DNA of 64,000 nt from NCBI GenBank assembly GCA_018673915.1, contig JABHBK010000067.1, positions 187,292 through 251,291 of the forward strand. The letters run 5' to 3'. Every line of letters begins with the position of its first letter. The stretch's first letter is position 1. A model generated the notes under the pieces. The model did no database searches, was not told the origin of the DNA, and worked only from the letters and a program-made list of their open reading frames with translations. This DNA is from Nitrospina sp. (lineage in GTDB: Bacteria; Nitrospinota; Nitrospinia; Nitrospinales; VA-1). The position numbers and the translations under genes are program-made. This document shows positions 12,197 through 20,668 of this stretch, piece by piece.

Positions 12197-12865
12197 TTAT
12201 TTACTGTCAACGGATTTAAAGATATCGTTTAGTTTTTCAAGATCGTCTTTAGTGTACTCATCTTGAGGTTGGCTGTTATTTGGTAGGTTTTTCTTCAAGT
12301 CACTAATTTTATCAGACAAGTTTTTTAGATCTTTTAAGTCATTAAACTTTTCCTTGGCTCCCTCCATATCAAAATTTGAAATCTTTTGTCTTATGTTGAG
12401 AGTTCCAGGATTTTGATTCACGAAATCTAAGACTTTCGCTAAATATGGGGCAGAATACGAATCCTTTGTAAACTTTTCTGCCAATTCAGGAAAAAACTGT
12501 AGAGGAAATGTAACAGCAACAATTATAACTACACCTCTTGCTAATCCCACCACGCCGCCCATAATTCTGTCAAAGGTCGACAAATCTGTTCCGGACCATA
12601 GCATTGCTTTGGCAACTTTCCCCATTAGAGAGATAATAATTGCAGTAACTATATAGATGGCTCCAAACGCAATCAGTTTCGCCAATGGCTTGCTGGGAAT
12701 GCTTTCCATTAACACCTGGGCAAATGTGTTTTGATATTTGACGGCCATTAAATATCCTCCCACATAGGAGATTAGAGAGAATATTTCTCTTACAAATCCC
12801 TTCATTAAGGAGAAAATCAGGCTGAAGCCGAGAACAACCGAAACAAAAATATCAAAAGATGTCAT
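12197..12865 (-). CDS. CvpA family inner-membrane protein
   Basis: A 222-residue protein with four hydrophobic helices in the first ~125 residues (FDIFVSVVLGFSLIFSLMKGF, then helices around 30-50, 62-85 and 100-125). It carries the CvpA signatures KGFVREIFSL and FDRIMGGVVGLARGVVI. The last ~85 residues form a charged, Lys/Asp-rich cytoplasmic tail. CvpA proteins are linked to colicin V export and envelope homeostasis; the biochemical role is unknown. The start codon overlaps the stop of the upstream Nudix gene by one base (TAATG), implying translational coupling. Confidence 0.88.
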   Translation of the reverse strand: MTSFDIFVSVVLGFSLIFSLMKGFVREIFSLISYVGGYLMAVKYQNTFAQVLMESIPSKPLAKLIAFGAIYIVTAIIISLMGKVAKAMLWSGTDLSTFDRIMGGVVGLARGVVIIVAVTFPLQFFPELAEKFTKDSYSAPYLAKVLDFVNQNPGTLNIRQKISNFDMEGAKEKFNDLKDLKNLSDKISDLKKNLPNNSQPQDEYTKDDLEKLNDIFKSVDSK

Positions 12866-13407
12866 TAGACTGTGTTCTCCAATTCTATTCCTGTGGAAGA
12901 AATATTTTTTATGTCTTTAATTAAAGATAAAAGCATTTTAAATGAAGAGGTGAACTGGGCGGGATTACAAGCCACTTCTTTCTGAACTTGAGATAGGCTG
13001 AAAAAAGCACCTTCGCTGATTTCTTCTTGATTAATATTAATCTCAGCATCAGTTATACAACTGTAAACCTGAACATGCTCATTATAAGTTTCCTGGCAAG
13101 CTGAAATTTTTATGGAAGTTTTCAAGTTAGCCTTTAAGCCAAGTTCTTCCCAAAGTTCGCGGTGAGCGCATTCGTCATAGGATTCCCCCGCATCCACATG
13201 CCCGGCTGATGAAGTATCCCATAATCCTGGATTCTCATCTTTGGAAGGAGCACGTTTTTGCAAAAACAATTCATTCTTGGAATTAAAAACAAGAACGTGA
13301 ATGGATCGATGTAGTAAATTATTTTTATGAATCTGCTTGCGACTTGCTGTCCCCAATATCTGATCATTTTCATCGACTACATTATAAATTTCATTTTCTA
13401 CATTCAT
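12865..13407 (-). CDS. Nudix hydrolase (IPP-isomerase/YfcD-like)
   Basis: A 180-residue protein with a full Nudix box: GHVDAGESYDECAHRELWEELGL, i.e. G-x5-E-x7-R-E-x2-E-E-x-G. The N-terminal EIYNVVDENDQILGTASRKQIH and HRSIHVLVFNSKNELFLQKR segments place it in the subgroup that includes YfcD and isopentenyl-diphosphate isomerase-like proteins, which hydrolyse nucleoside or other diphosphates. The substrate is not deducible. It is coupled to cvpA (1-base overlap) and lies 22 bases after the HPr-fusion gene. Confidence 0.9.
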   Translation of the reverse strand: MNVENEIYNVVDENDQILGTASRKQIHKNNLLHRSIHVLVFNSKNELFLQKRAPSKDENPGLWDTSSAGHVDAGESYDECAHRELWEELGLKANLKTSIKISACQETYNEHVQVYSCITDAEININQEEISEGAFFSLSQVQKEVACNPAQFTSSFKMLLSLIKDIKNISSTGIELENTV

Positions 13408-13429: not shown

Positions 13430-14740
13430 TTATTGGGGACGCAGATAGCTTAATTGCCGAGGAAATTCTCCTTCTTCACAATAATTATTCTGAGCAAGTA
13501 GTTTAACATCATTGATAGCCTGCTTGGACCCTTCTAAAATAACCTTTTTATATCCTTTGTCAGCAAGAAGGCCACCAGCCTGCAACAGGCTCATAACTGA
13601 TTTGGCGTTAAATTTTTCTTCATCAATTATCATAAACAGCTCACCTTCATGATGTCGGGCAATTAATGAAATGAAAGTTGAAGGCCTGGCGTGAAAACCT
13701 AAAGGCTGGGGAATGAGAACCTCTGCTCTGACGTTTTCCACAAACTTCAGCAAGATTTCCTTAACCAGCTTGTCACCCTCTTGAAGATAAAACATGCTGT
13801 AATGAAAACCAAAATTAAAAATTTGTCCCAATAAAATCTCTTTATTCACAACTTTTGAGATTTGTTGCCGGCATTCACCATGACGAATATCATCTTCATG
13901 ACGTTCATAAAAATGACACAGCCAGAGGACAACCTCAAGAAGATGAAGCGGCATGGATATATACCCCCTCATATATTTCAAATCCTCTCGAGTCTGTTCA
14001 AGCCGGGTATTCTTGACGTATGTGTCATATTCTGATTGAACACTATGCACTAACTCTTTAAACATTCGCACCAATTTTTCATCCAACTTAGAAGGAATAA
14101 CATGGCGGAACACTTCAAGGTCATCATTCCTTTTAAACCCGATCTCTTTCACCATTTTCGCGACTTTTCGATATTTTTGGCACAGGTCGATTATTCTTTC
14201 CTCCTCCTCTTTCACCTCATCTTCTAGAATAGTTCTAGGAAGGCGTTTATTTGATTCAATTTCAGAAAACTCATCCAATGCAAGTGAACCCTCGTGAATT
14301 TCCAAGCCGTTTAATTCGCCTGACTTTACCACTTCCGTTCTTAGACCCAATATTGAAGCATTTAGAAATTCCAAAGCCTGGTAGGCCGAATCGTGAAAGG
14401 CTTGAGCGTTTTCCTCCGATTCTCCAAGGTTATAATAAGGATAGCGATCCAAAATATGCTTAATATAAAATGCGGCAATAGAAAGGTTACGTATGCAAGC
14501 AACATATTCCGAGAAAAAAGACCACGTTTTATTTTCCCGAGCCCCATGTTCATCCAGAACACTTTCCAAATACTCCGTTTCCTGTATAAGGGTGGAATAA
14601 TATTTCCTGGAAATTTCCTTTTTGGCTTTTATTTTTTCGCATAACAATGCACTAACATTAAGGAAAAGCCGGGAAGGTTCCTGGACAATCTTTAAAAATT
14701 CCTCTTCAGAAATGATTTGAATAAGTGATTTTGCTTCCAT
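13430..14740 (-). CDS. Large helical protein with C-terminal HPr phosphocarrier domain
   Basis: 436 residues. Residues 1 to ~335 are strongly helical and charged with no family I recognise; parts resemble four-helix-bundle or signal-receiver helices (EEERIIDLCQKYRKVAKMVKEIG). From ~338 on the sequence is a recognisable HPr: LGFHARPSTFISLIARH carries the phosphorylatable His (about H350), and NAKSVMSLLQAGGL matches the HPr serine-46 region, followed by VILEGSKQAINDV. HPr is normally an ~88-residue free protein of the PTS. Here it is tethered to a large partner, so a regulatory rather than sugar-transport role is likely. No other PTS gene is in the window. It heads the coaE/cvpA/Nudix operon. 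Confidence 0.8.
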   Translation of the reverse strand: MEAKSLIQIISEEEFLKIVQEPSRLFLNVSALLCEKIKAKKEISRKYYSTLIQETEYLESVLDEHGARENKTWSFFSEYVACIRNLSIAAFYIKHILDRYPYYNLGESEENAQAFHDSAYQALEFLNASILGLRTEVVKSGELNGLEIHEGSLALDEFSEIESNKRLPRTILEDEVKEEEERIIDLCQKYRKVAKMVKEIGFKRNDDLEVFRHVIPSKLDEKLVRMFKELVHSVQSEYDTYVKNTRLEQTREDLKYMRGYISMPLHLLEVVLWLCHFYERHEDDIRHGECRQQISKVVNKEILLGQIFNFGFHYSMFYLQEGDKLVKEILLKFVENVRAEVLIPQPLGFHARPSTFISLIARHHEGELFMIIDEEKFNAKSVMSLLQAGGLLADKGYKKVILEGSKQAINDVKLLAQNNYCEEGEFPRQLSYLRPQ

Positions 14741-14833: not shown

Positions 14834-15376
14834 TTAAAAGGCTACAGATTTGGCCAAAATATTTTTTGGTAGGTATTTTTGCCAGATTTCAATATGGGCA
14901 TCTGGCCCGGAAGGAATGTTGAAAGGAACGAATTGATAATCCGGTTTTCTTGGAAGCCGATGCAGCTTCATATCCACCTCGAAAGGAGTTCGGTCTCCTT
15001 TTTTGAGATTACAAGTTTTGCAAGCAACAACAATATTTGTCCAGTTGGTTTTTCCTCCCCGAGATTTAGGGACTACATGGTCTACGGTAAGGAAATGATT
15101 AGATGCCCCACAATATTGGCAGGTGTAATTATCTCTTCTTAAAATATTTTTCTTGCTAAATGCCAAGCCTTTTTTTCGGTTCCGGTTGACCATTTTCAAA
15201 ACCCGTACCACCGTAGGAAGTTTGAAGCTGGTCGATGGGGTACGGACAAAATAGCCAGCACTTTCCAATTCCTCGGCCCTGCCACCAAAAACCATAGTTA
15301 AGGCATGACGAGCACTACAAAACTGGAGCGGTTCATAGGAATAATTCAATACCAGTATCTTAAACGAATCGAGCAT
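14834..15376 (-). CDS. HNH endonuclease family protein
   Basis: A 180-residue protein. The C-terminal half is an HNH domain with a zinc-binding frame: CQYCG (CxxC), then FLTVDHVVPKSRGGKTNWTNIVVACKTCNLKKG, which supplies the DH, N and second CxxC. The N-terminal ~70 residues (LDSFKILVLNYSYEPLQFCSARHAL) are the conserved extension found in a widespread chromosomal HNH family in Proteobacteria and Cyanobacteria. The cellular role of that family is unclear. No phage or intron sequence flanks it, so it is not evidently part of a mobile element. Confidence 0.88.
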   Translation of the reverse strand: MLDSFKILVLNYSYEPLQFCSARHALTMVFGGRAEELESAGYFVRTPSTSFKLPTVVRVLKMVNRNRKKGLAFSKKNILRRDNYTCQYCGASNHFLTVDHVVPKSRGGKTNWTNIVVACKTCNLKKGDRTPFEVDMKLHRLPRKPDYQFVPFNIPSGPDAHIEIWQKYLPKNILAKSVAF

Positions 15377-17875: not shown

Positions 17876-18823
17876 TTGAATACAACATCAAAAAAAACAA
17901 TCGAAATAAATGGGGTCACTCTATATTTGAGTCAATCTGACACTACGCGTTCTGAGTGGATTGGGCAGGAAGAAGTCCTCAAACAGATTCAAGCCTGCTG
18001 GATGGTTGTCTCTGAAAAAGACTTTCCGCTTTCGCCAAGAATAACTGGGATGCCAGGAACAGGAAAAACAACGCTGGCCATGGTAGCGGCGAACCAAAGA
18101 AAGCAGCCATTGTATATATTTCAGTGCACCAGTGACACACGTCCGGAGGATCTTCTGATCACTCCGGTTCTTTCAGAGAAGGGGAAGATTTCCTATCACG
18201 CTTCTCCTCTGGTATGCGCCATGATCGAAGGTGGCATTTGCATTCTTGATGAAGGCAACCGTATGAATGAAAAAAGTTGGGCCTCTTTAGCCCCTCTTCT
18301 CGATCACCGTCGTTACGTAGAATCTATTATTGCTGGAATTCAGATCCATGCCCATAAAGAGTTTCGGGCCTGCGTGACAATGAACAATGATGAGTCTACT
18401 TTCGAAATCCCTGACTATATACTTTCTCGTTTGCAACCCACCTTGCAAATGACGATGCCAAGTTATCAGGATGAATTGGCGATACTCAGATACCATCTCC
18501 CGTTTTCTGAAGAAGACCTTTTAAAAATGACGGTAGAATTCTTACAAAAATCTCACCAGTTGGATCTGGATTTTTCTCCCCGTGATGGTATTCATATCAT
18601 TCGTTATGCTCTAAAACGGATCAGTCAGGAAAAAGACAATCCTCTAGCGAAGGACAAGATATGGCAAGAAGCTGTCAGCAAAGTTTTAGGAGAAGAAGCA
18701 TTAGATCTGGATTCGTTAGCCGCTCAAAACCGCAGGGCTTTAGGAGAGGAAAGACTTCCCATGGGGTTGGGGGATTTCTTTTTCAACGACGACAACCCCT
18801 TACACCCAGATAGTGATAAATAA
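17876..18823 (+). CDS. MoxR-type AAA+ ATPase
   Basis: 315 residues starting at TTG behind AAGGA. Walker A is GMPGTGKT (residues 58-65), Walker B is CILDEGNRM (about 122-130), sensor 1 lies in [10 protein letters not shown], and SRLQPT carries the arginine-finger region. The helical lid follows (about 220-290). MoxR ATPases act as chaperone-like remodelers, normally encoded beside von Willebrand factor (VWA) proteins that serve as adaptors. Here the partner is instead the 610-aa gene starting 12 bases downstream, and no VWA gene is present. The pair has its own promoter and divergent neighbours, so it forms a self-contained two-gene unit. Confidence 0.92.
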
Positions 18824-18835
18824 GGATTTGAAATT

Positions 18836-20668
18836 ATGAGTCAAGTCCTTAAGCTCAGTGATCGCATACAATTTTTACCTGTCATTCATGGTAGCGGCAG
18901 TTTTGCACGGGAGGTGCGACATCGTCTTTTATCACTTCCCTGTGATTGTCTTGCGGTCGCGCTGCCTCCTGAATTTAAACAGACAGTTGAAGAGGGAATC
19001 AATTCACTCCCTGCAATTTCATTGAGTTGCCAAACTGAACAAAATGGTGGAATGAATTATGTTCCCATCGACCCAAGTCAGCCTGTAATCACGGGTCTGC
19101 GCATTGCCATGCAGGAGGGAATATCTCGTCATTTTATTGATTGGAGCACCGAGAATTATGAAAAAAGAGGCATTGACTTCCCCGACAGCTTTACATTGAG
19201 TAAAGTTTCTTATGAAAAATTTATCAGTACTCTACTTTTAACCCTTAAACGCCCTGAGGAAAAAAGCCAGCATTTTTGGCGTGCACGATGGATGGCTTAT
19301 CAACTTCATCAACTGGAGTTAGAATACTCCAATATTATATGTCTATGCTCAATCCTCGACTGGCCTTGGATTAAGGAAACTTATGATGAACGTTTAGAGA
19401 TACTCCCACCCCAAAAACCAGAAGGTTTGCCTTCTTTATTTGGAGTAGATAATAAAACCCTGTTTTTCGCGCTAACAGAATTTCCCTACGTAACCTATTT
19501 ATATGAAAAAAAGAGGCAGGAATTACGCCCTGATGCTAATACTCCAGTTGATGGCGTTAAAGAAATCCTTTTACGTGCCCGGGAATTATTCATTAAAAAA
19601 CATAAAATTCGCTATCACAACCTGACTTCCCAGACATTTCAGGTTCTTTTACAATATATTCGCAATCTAACTTTAATGGAGTCGCGACTTCTGCCAGACC
19701 TCTTCACGCTTGTTAATGCTGCCAAGCAATTCGGAGGGGATCCTTTTGCGGTAGCCGTGTTAGAAGCATCAAGGGAATATCCGTTTGAACCCAACGACAC
19801 ATTGCCAGAATCCCTTTCAATGGGAATCGATCAGGCCCTCACTCAAGAAGAAGGTGCTCAACCCTTATCTATGACCAACCGTTTGTCCGAAACTCAATTT
19901 GAATGGCGTACTCTAGATTTAAAGCCTGACCCGGACCAGCGAACCCAAGAAAAATGGCAACATCGTTGGGATCCTTATGGGCAGTGCTCCTGGCCCCCTG
20001 AAGATGAGAAAATAGAAAACCTGAATACGCATGTGCGCGAACAAACCAAACTATTATTAAGTCATGACTTGGCCCGGACCGAAAAATTCACATCCTCCGT
20101 TAAAGACGGCATAGATATAAGGGATACCCTGCGTCACTGGTACACAGGGGATATTTACGTGAAAGAAATTCCTCCTTCCAGAGGACAGGTCGAAATCATC
20201 GTTTTTCTTTTCGACCCTGAGCCTGAACCTCATAAATATAATTGGTGCCAAACCTGGTACGCTGAACATAATGAGGAATCAACATTATGTTTTTACGCTA
20301 CCGAGTATATGGAGCAGTTAATCGGTCCAGGTATCGGGCAAGCGACCTATGGAGGATGCATGATGATTTACCCTCCCCGCCCTATTCCAGATATATGGCA
20401 GGATCCTCGAATTCATATTTCAGTCACCTTGGAGGAAAAACTTCTGGAAGCCGCTTTTTATCACTCTAAAGAAAAAAATGTCACGGTTGTTTCACCTTGT
20501 GCCCCTCGAATAACATGGCGGAGGTTAGCCAGGAAATACGGAAAAAAAATCATCCATATTCCCTTAAAAAGATTTTCCAATCAAACGATTGAAAAAGTAA
20601 GGCGGTTCCACGTACTGAACGGAAAAAATATCCGCTCCTACGCCCAACGTTTTATTCAAGACCTATGA
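18836..20668 (+). CDS. MoxR-associated 610-residue protein of unknown function (N-terminus TraB/DUF5682-like?)
   Basis: No signal peptide or membrane segment; probably cytoplasmic. The first ~150 residues begin with a strand-turn pattern (LPVIHGSGSFAREVRHRLL...CDCLAVALPPEF) that recalls TraB/ChaN-fold proteins such as DUF5682, where a His-Gly start and a D-x-L-x-V-x-x-P segment recur. Next comes a helical, Trp-rich middle (W at WPWIKE, WRARWMAY). The C-terminal third (about 420-610) contains VEIIVFLFDPEPEPHKYNW, GIGQATYGGCMMIYPPRP and a basic end (TWRRLARKYGKKIIHIP). I do not recognise a full-length family. Close coupling to the MoxR gene (12 bases) makes it the likely substrate or adaptor of that ATPase. 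Confidence 0.8.
   Translation: MSQVLKLSDRIQFLPVIHGSGSFAREVRHRLLSLPCDCLAVALPPEFKQTVEEGINSLPAISLSCQTEQNGGMNYVPIDPSQPVITGLRIAMQEGISRHFIDWSTENYEKRGIDFPDSFTLSKVSYEKFISTLLLTLKRPEEKSQHFWRARWMAYQLHQLELEYSNIICLCSILDWPWIKETYDERLEILPPQKPEGLPSLFGVDNKTLFFALTEFPYVTYLYEKKRQELRPDANTPVDGVKEILLRARELFIKKHKIRYHNLTSQTFQVLLQYIRNLTLMESRLLPDLFTLVNAAKQFGGDPFAVAVLEASREYPFEPNDTLPESLSMGIDQALTQEEGAQPLSMTNRLSETQFEWRTLDLKPDPDQRTQEKWQHRWDPYGQCSWPPEDEKIENLNTHVREQTKLLLSHDLARTEKFTSSVKDGIDIRDTLRHWYTGDIYVKEIPPSRGQVEIIVFLFDPEPEPHKYNWCQTWYAEHNEESTLCFYATEYMEQLIGPGIGQATYGGCMMIYPPRPIPDIWQDPRIHISVTLEEKLLEAAFYHSKEKNVTVVSPCAPRITWRRLARKYGKKIIHIPLKRFSNQTIEKVRRFHVLNGKNIRSYAQRFIQDL

Follow-up and report, generated by a model that had tools for sequence, protein, structure and literature searches.

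Introduction

The known phosphate acceptor of Enzyme I (EI) is HPr. In the available part of the survey PMC2405797, EI proteins with an N-terminal GAF domain make up the Ntr group, with group R set apart from it. HPr is described there either as free or as fused, the usual partners being IIA and EI domains. The EI-R regulatory PTS is found in bacteria without PTS transporters, as far as the accessible portions of PMC2405797 and PMC13104625 describe it. Together with the PTS-Ntr (PtsP-PtsO/NPr-PtsN), it comes closest to the system considered here: judged from the same portions of these sources, both combine genes for EI and for an EIIA of the Ntr class with an rpoN-hpf cluster and use a single HPr-type carrier between EI and EIIA, as appears to be the case in Nitrospina. 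The difference lies in the carrier. In PTS-Ntr it is a protein of its own, whereas here HPr forms the C-terminal part of a larger protein (436 aa) whose gene lies outside the cluster. HPr within a larger protein is also known from the multiphosphoryl transfer proteins FruB/FPr and DhaM (PMC2405797, in the part available), but their partner domains are IIA or EI, and that of the fusion is a helical domain without family match. The fusion architecture is mentioned neither in the available sections of the PMC2405797 survey nor in those of a 2026 review on PTS-Ntr. The open-access papers searched contained nothing about a PTS in Nitrospina or an HPr-helical fusion, and the main text of the N. gracilis genome paper mentions neither phosphotransferase nor HPr.

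Results

The fusion gene and its product

The fusion gene, called HPRX here, was identified in a window of 64,000 nucleotides, the whole stretch of DNA that was analysed. The open reading frame list of the window gives a product of 436 aa with an ATG at 14740, and the orthologues share start and length. All features with coordinates in the window are summarized in Table 1. An AlphaFold model of the whole fusion, calculated with an alignment of 24 orthologues, reached a mean pLDDT of 85.8 and a pTM of 0.80; residues 1-335 were modelled as all-helical and the C-terminal part as the beta/alpha fold of HPr. The open reading frame, Pfam, AlphaFold, Foldseek and the orthologues agree on an HPr domain joined to a helical domain of ~335 residues, as had been read from the sequence in the preliminary description.

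Table 1. Features of the fusion gene and of its surroundings (positions of the window).
Feature	Position	Strand	Basis or remark
Fusion gene (HPRX)	13430..14740	-	ORF; orthologues share start and length
N-terminal all-helical domain, residues 1-335	13736..14740	-	AlphaFold alone; matches no family
C-terminal HPr domain, residues 336-436	13430..13735	-	Family and structure matches
His350, equivalent of phosphorylated HPr His15 (GFHARPST)	13691..13693	-	Conservation in orthologues
Ser381, equivalent of HPr Ser46 (KSVM)	13598..13600	-	Conserved in 21/22 sequences
NUDIX hydrolase, downstream	12865..13407	-	22 bp past the fusion gene; conserved in Nitrospinales
HNH endonuclease-domain protein, upstream	14834..15376	-	Neighbour conserved in Nitrospinales
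Conserved opposite-strand gene pair	17876..20668	+	MoxR-like AAA ATPase (by eye) and 610-aa partner

The HPr domain

Residues 338-389 match the Pfam family PTS-HPr (PF00381) with an E-value of 5.4e-6 and 26.8 bits, above the cutoff of 23 bits. The NCBIfam model TIGR01003 also matches (E 6e-8), with 32.5 bits below its cutoff of 47.9. The Pfam match takes in model positions 2-52 of 81. The description of the ~100 C-terminal residues as HPr consequently holds for the first two thirds of the family model only, whereas the last third is divergent and extended (NYCE...YLR). Both predicted functional sites were found in place, the phospho-His motif as GFHARPST (His350) and the Ser46-type region as NAKSVM (Ser381). 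Foldseek matched the C-terminal part to HPr structures with a probability of 1.00 and TMt values mostly of 0.66-0.77, and in a search of PDB sequences solved HPr structures were the sole significant relatives of the fusion. With a family match above cutoff, the His with its adjoining Arg and the HPr fold, the domain belongs to PF00381. The phospho-His, Arg17 and Ser46-type positions and the fold are common to the fusion and free HPr, NPr and Crh; the fusion differs by ~335 extra residues, the divergent, extended C-terminus and a separate branch in the tree. It is thus no free HPr or NPr (ptsH/ptsO), which is a single domain of ~85-90 residues.

A loss of the His in orthologues would have spoken against the proposed phosphorylation-controlled regulator. 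His350 never varies among the 52 distinct orthologue sequences scanned, and the active-site Arg is present in 51 of them, with a single Lys (G001). In a broad alignment of 22 diverse sequences, outgroups included, HxRP is kept throughout, H350, R352 and P353 being the invariant residues of the HPr domain. Cys421 is invariant in the Nitrospinota alignment, where it appears as C420 due to a reference without the first Met. Some outgroups carry a Gly at this position, and Cys421 is therefore not essential. In the copies of G311 (L159:7852-9465) and G250 (L162:8931-11510) ~60-100 residues are inserted in the HPr domain past the Ser46 region, and the domain resumes beyond the inserted stretch in both. 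In a phylogenetic tree the fused HPr domains separated from the free ones (support 91/87; 92% of bootstrap trees), which suggests a single lineage of old age rather than recent fusions that arose repeatedly; this is a weak single-domain tree with long rows for G200 and G249.

The helical domain

Modelled alone with AlphaFold, residues 1-335 reached a pTM of 0.88 and are therefore a domain and not a linker. Over the same 22 diverse sequences, the residues F15, E59, D63, A67, N70, L167, D239, R258, H266, L267, H276, E279, R280 and H281 are invariant. The polar ones among them (E59, D63, N70, D239, R258, H266, H276, E279, R280, H281) point, on the basis of this conservation, to an interface or to a site of binding or catalysis.

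The helical domain had been described as unrecognised, and this was confirmed: profile searches of residues 1-335 gave nothing convincing in Pfam, NCBIfam, PHROGs or the PDB sequences, and Foldseek found no convincing match among PDB and viral models. The family and structure searches likewise did not bear out a known PTS component. A CHAD identity was considered and rejected, with no Pfam CHAD match at E-values up to 10 and only weak Foldseek matches to 6rn5 and 6qva (probabilities 0.77 and 0.57, TM-scores 0.27-0.30, E 0.18-0.40). The former is the CHAD protein PptA, and the latter carries a CHAD label in its entry. Their common trait with the helical domain is that all are all-helical, a likeness only of the kind seen among generic helix bundles. 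An internal duplication was also rejected, as hhalign of the two halves found nothing.

PTS genes in the source genome and in the phylum

According to the preliminary description, no PTS enzyme is encoded nearby. This holds within the window, but not for the genome as a whole, where both EI and an EIIA are present. The EI of the source genome (G000:C32) is a protein of 593 aa and matches TIGR01417 with 581 bits (cutoff 341.7), which answers the question whether an EI exists at all. It consists of EI domains only, without a GAF domain, unlike EI-Ntr, and is hence no PtsP. EI was found in 71 of 77 Nitrospinota genomes (31/31 of the good ones), and the active-site His is present in all 31 EI loci read. 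An EIIA of the Fru/Ntr class was found in 70/77 genomes, again including 31/31 good ones. In the source genome it is a PF00359 protein beside the sigma54 and hpf genes, above cutoff for the fruA-class model and below it for the PtsN equivalog model, so that the name EIIA-Ntr is based partly on its place beside rpoN. The order in the source genome is sigma54 (partial, at the contig end), hpf, EIIA, EI and metK, the last being named by eye. An EI is thus encoded and the EIIA lies beside rpoN, as in a PTS-Ntr-type chain.

An HPr family search of the source genome yielded a single match, the fusion itself. Across the phylum 61/77 genomes gave an HPr match, and in 57 of these 61 the fusion is the sole HPr. 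Only four free HPr genes were found, all in family f9 and adjoining ptsI, with the fusion elsewhere in the same genomes. A free ptsH is absent from the rpoN-hpf-ptsN-ptsI cluster of the source genome. The Nitrospinales tables place EIIA about 30-180 bp from EI, too little space for a ptsH between them; tblastn detected no free-HPr remnant there, and the wider EIIA-EI gap of G002 contains no HPr-like frame. EIIA-Man is restricted to the deeper families f5-f9, which sets the phylum apart from the described regulatory PTS, and lies between ptsN and ptsI (or ptsH) where coordinates show its place. These patterns fit an ancestral cluster rpoN-hpf-ptsN-manX-ptsH-ptsI that first lost ptsH and then manX, the fusion being retained at its separate place; we infer the order of the two losses. 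The rpoN clusters of the regulatory PTS in the accessible portions of PMC2405797 and PMC13104625 resemble this proposed ancestral arrangement.

HPr kinase, a further difference from the regulatory PTS, gave 0 matches in the source genome. Across the phylum only partial matches were obtained (8/77 genomes, 28-50 of 171 positions). The kinase/phosphorylase of an HprK-controlled HPr was accordingly not found, which makes Ser46-type control unlikely despite the conserved Ser.

Distribution of the fusion

A profile search for the fusion in related genomes found it in 62/77 Nitrospinota genomes (29/31 good ones) and, in a wider sample of about 310 bacterial genomes from outside the phylum, in nine, namely G138, G148, G279, G289, G340, G311, G249, G200 and the divergent G250. 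The outgroup sample is thin and most genomes are MAGs, so that single absences are unsafe. Plasmid-borne relatives were searched for and none were found. Judged by sequence comparison, the fusion is ancient. A total of 26 relative loci were retrieved, all Nitrospina or Nitrospinota by title or close identity. A Nitrospina-type locus (54-86% identity) was also observed on contigs titled Neomarinimicrobiota, Marinimicrobia and Nitrospirae (L002, L004, L022), with 84-86% identity for the Neomarinimicrobiota-titled ones; the odd titles are probably due to wrong titling or binning.

Gene neighbourhood

Where a Nitrospinales locus extends far enough, it shows the conserved order HNH, fusion, NUDIX, (insert), cvpA, class IV aminotransferase and coaE. 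The NUDIX gene is a probable co-transcription partner of the fusion gene. As an explanation for the fusion the neighbourhood was rejected: HNH, NUDIX, CvpA, aminotransferase and CoaE are stable, yet indicate no single pathway. The HNH protein shows partial similarity to the HNH region of IscB/Cas9d, below cutoff. The opposite-strand pair (Table 1) is mostly 68-97% identical in Nitrospina relatives.

Outside the Nitrospinales type, a gene for an M20 amidohydrolase (TIGR01891) follows the fusion closely on the same strand in f5 and f9 Nitrospinota and in G138 and G279 (L154, L156, L163, L166-L171), and in most f9 genomes an IlvE-type branched-chain aminotransferase comes next. The recurrence of the M20 gene in two distant groups is a circumstantial hint at amino-acid nitrogen metabolism. 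A tie to carbon or nitrogen status, as suggested, is at most a possibility, drawn from these amino-acid genes near relatives of the fusion and from the resemblance to PTS-Ntr. An AnmK-like gene was seen by eye past the amidohydrolase in G138 and G279. G148 (L155:3184-6673) and G289 (L157:2490-5951) have a common three-gene cluster near the fusion, by eye an LD-carboxypeptidase (ldcA-type), a serine hydrolase and an Mpl-type ligase (murein recycling).

Discussion

The preliminary description left the fusion standing apart from a PTS, which did not hold up. With EI and EIIA encoded beside rpoN/hpf and no other HPr found, the fusion probably fills the gap between the two in a regulatory PTS. From the observed architecture and conservation, the presence of EI and EIIA and the absence of any other HPr and of HPr kinase, we infer the following phosphotransfer steps and that the helical domain serves in sensing or output. 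EI would take phosphate from PEP and hand it over to His350 in the HPr part of the fusion, from where it would go to the EIIA-Ntr-type protein encoded beside EI. In most Nitrospinota the free HPr gene would be gone from the rpoN-hpf-ptsN-ptsI cluster, leaving the fusion as the last HPr. The helical domain could act as a ligand sensor gating the flow of phosphate, or as an output that switches according to whether HPr is phosphorylated. We consider it fairly probable that the fusion is the phosphocarrier of such a PTS-Ntr-like regulatory chain and replaced the lost free HPr in most Nitrospinota. Where no other HPr exists, the fusion has to accept the phosphate of EI, if the chain works at all, and no other donor to EIIA is visible. 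For most Nitrospinota and for G249 and G200 this argument is a strong one; for the other genomes it is weaker.

Several observations stand against the relay. One is the divergence of the HPr domain of the fusion in its last third. The out-of-phylum genome G289 (L157; 96% complete) carries a fusion with conserved His and gave no EI match (PF05524), being either a MAG gap or a case of a fusion without EI. Conversely, EI and EIIA occur without fusion or HPr in G028 and G067 (92% complete each); these absences are possibly MAG gaps. Finally, six outgroup genomes, G138, G148, G279, G340, G311 and G250, hold a separate, better-scoring HPr in addition to the fusion, so that carrying phosphate cannot be the sole reason why the fusion is kept. 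From its retention alongside a free HPr it follows that the helical domain has a function in its own right.

The same coexistence, found in the six outgroup and the four f9 genomes, favours another explanation, in which EI (or free HPr) phosphorylates the fusion and none of the phosphate is passed to EIIA. Phosphorylation would then control the helical domain, acting on a target such as a neighbouring enzyme; the M20 amidohydrolase gene directly after the fusion in nine genomes of two distant groups would suit this, and the invariant residues of the helical domain exceed the needs of a passive linker. Where free HPr is missing (most Nitrospinota, G249, G200), however, EIIA has no other visible donor and is nonetheless retained in every good Nitrospinota genome, which makes a fusion that hands on no phosphate unlikely. 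It is more improbable still that the HPr fold was reused as a docking module and phosphorylation given up. The divergent last third, the fusion genome without EI and the weak HPr scores (20-21 bits) of the outgroup copies in G249 and G200 point in this direction, but a His without exception in 52 sequences from several lineages is the pattern of a used phosphorylation site. The idea that two unrelated reading frames were joined by chance or in assembly has nothing but the unusual architecture in its favour and is, on the sequence record, practically excluded by the same full-length frame in independent assemblies from 62 genomes of the phylum.

With the relay through the fusion preferred, we classify the fusion as a protein with an HPr domain within a PTS-Ntr-like chain and do not regard it as a canonical NPr. 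With a real HPr domain, a conserved His and an N-terminal domain of no known family, a phosphorylation-controlled regulator remains the natural reading, as proposed before. The helical domain represents an additional domain family without a Pfam model, common to several bacterial lineages. More tentatively, it may be a novel kind of sensor or effector that contains a conserved polar pocket, in which case the PEP relay of the phylum would run via a sensor/regulator carrier instead of a free HPr.

To our knowledge, little is known about how Nitrospinota sense their carbon and energy status. The abstract of PMC8026999 ranks them first in abundance among the known marine nitrite oxidisers. In these bacteria and their relatives the PEP-driven signalling relay of the cell probably runs through a two-domain fusion protein. 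EI, the fusion and EIIA form a defined, easily expressed set for in vitro work, and, if the proposal is true, a regulatory input or output would be located at the HPr step of the PTS.
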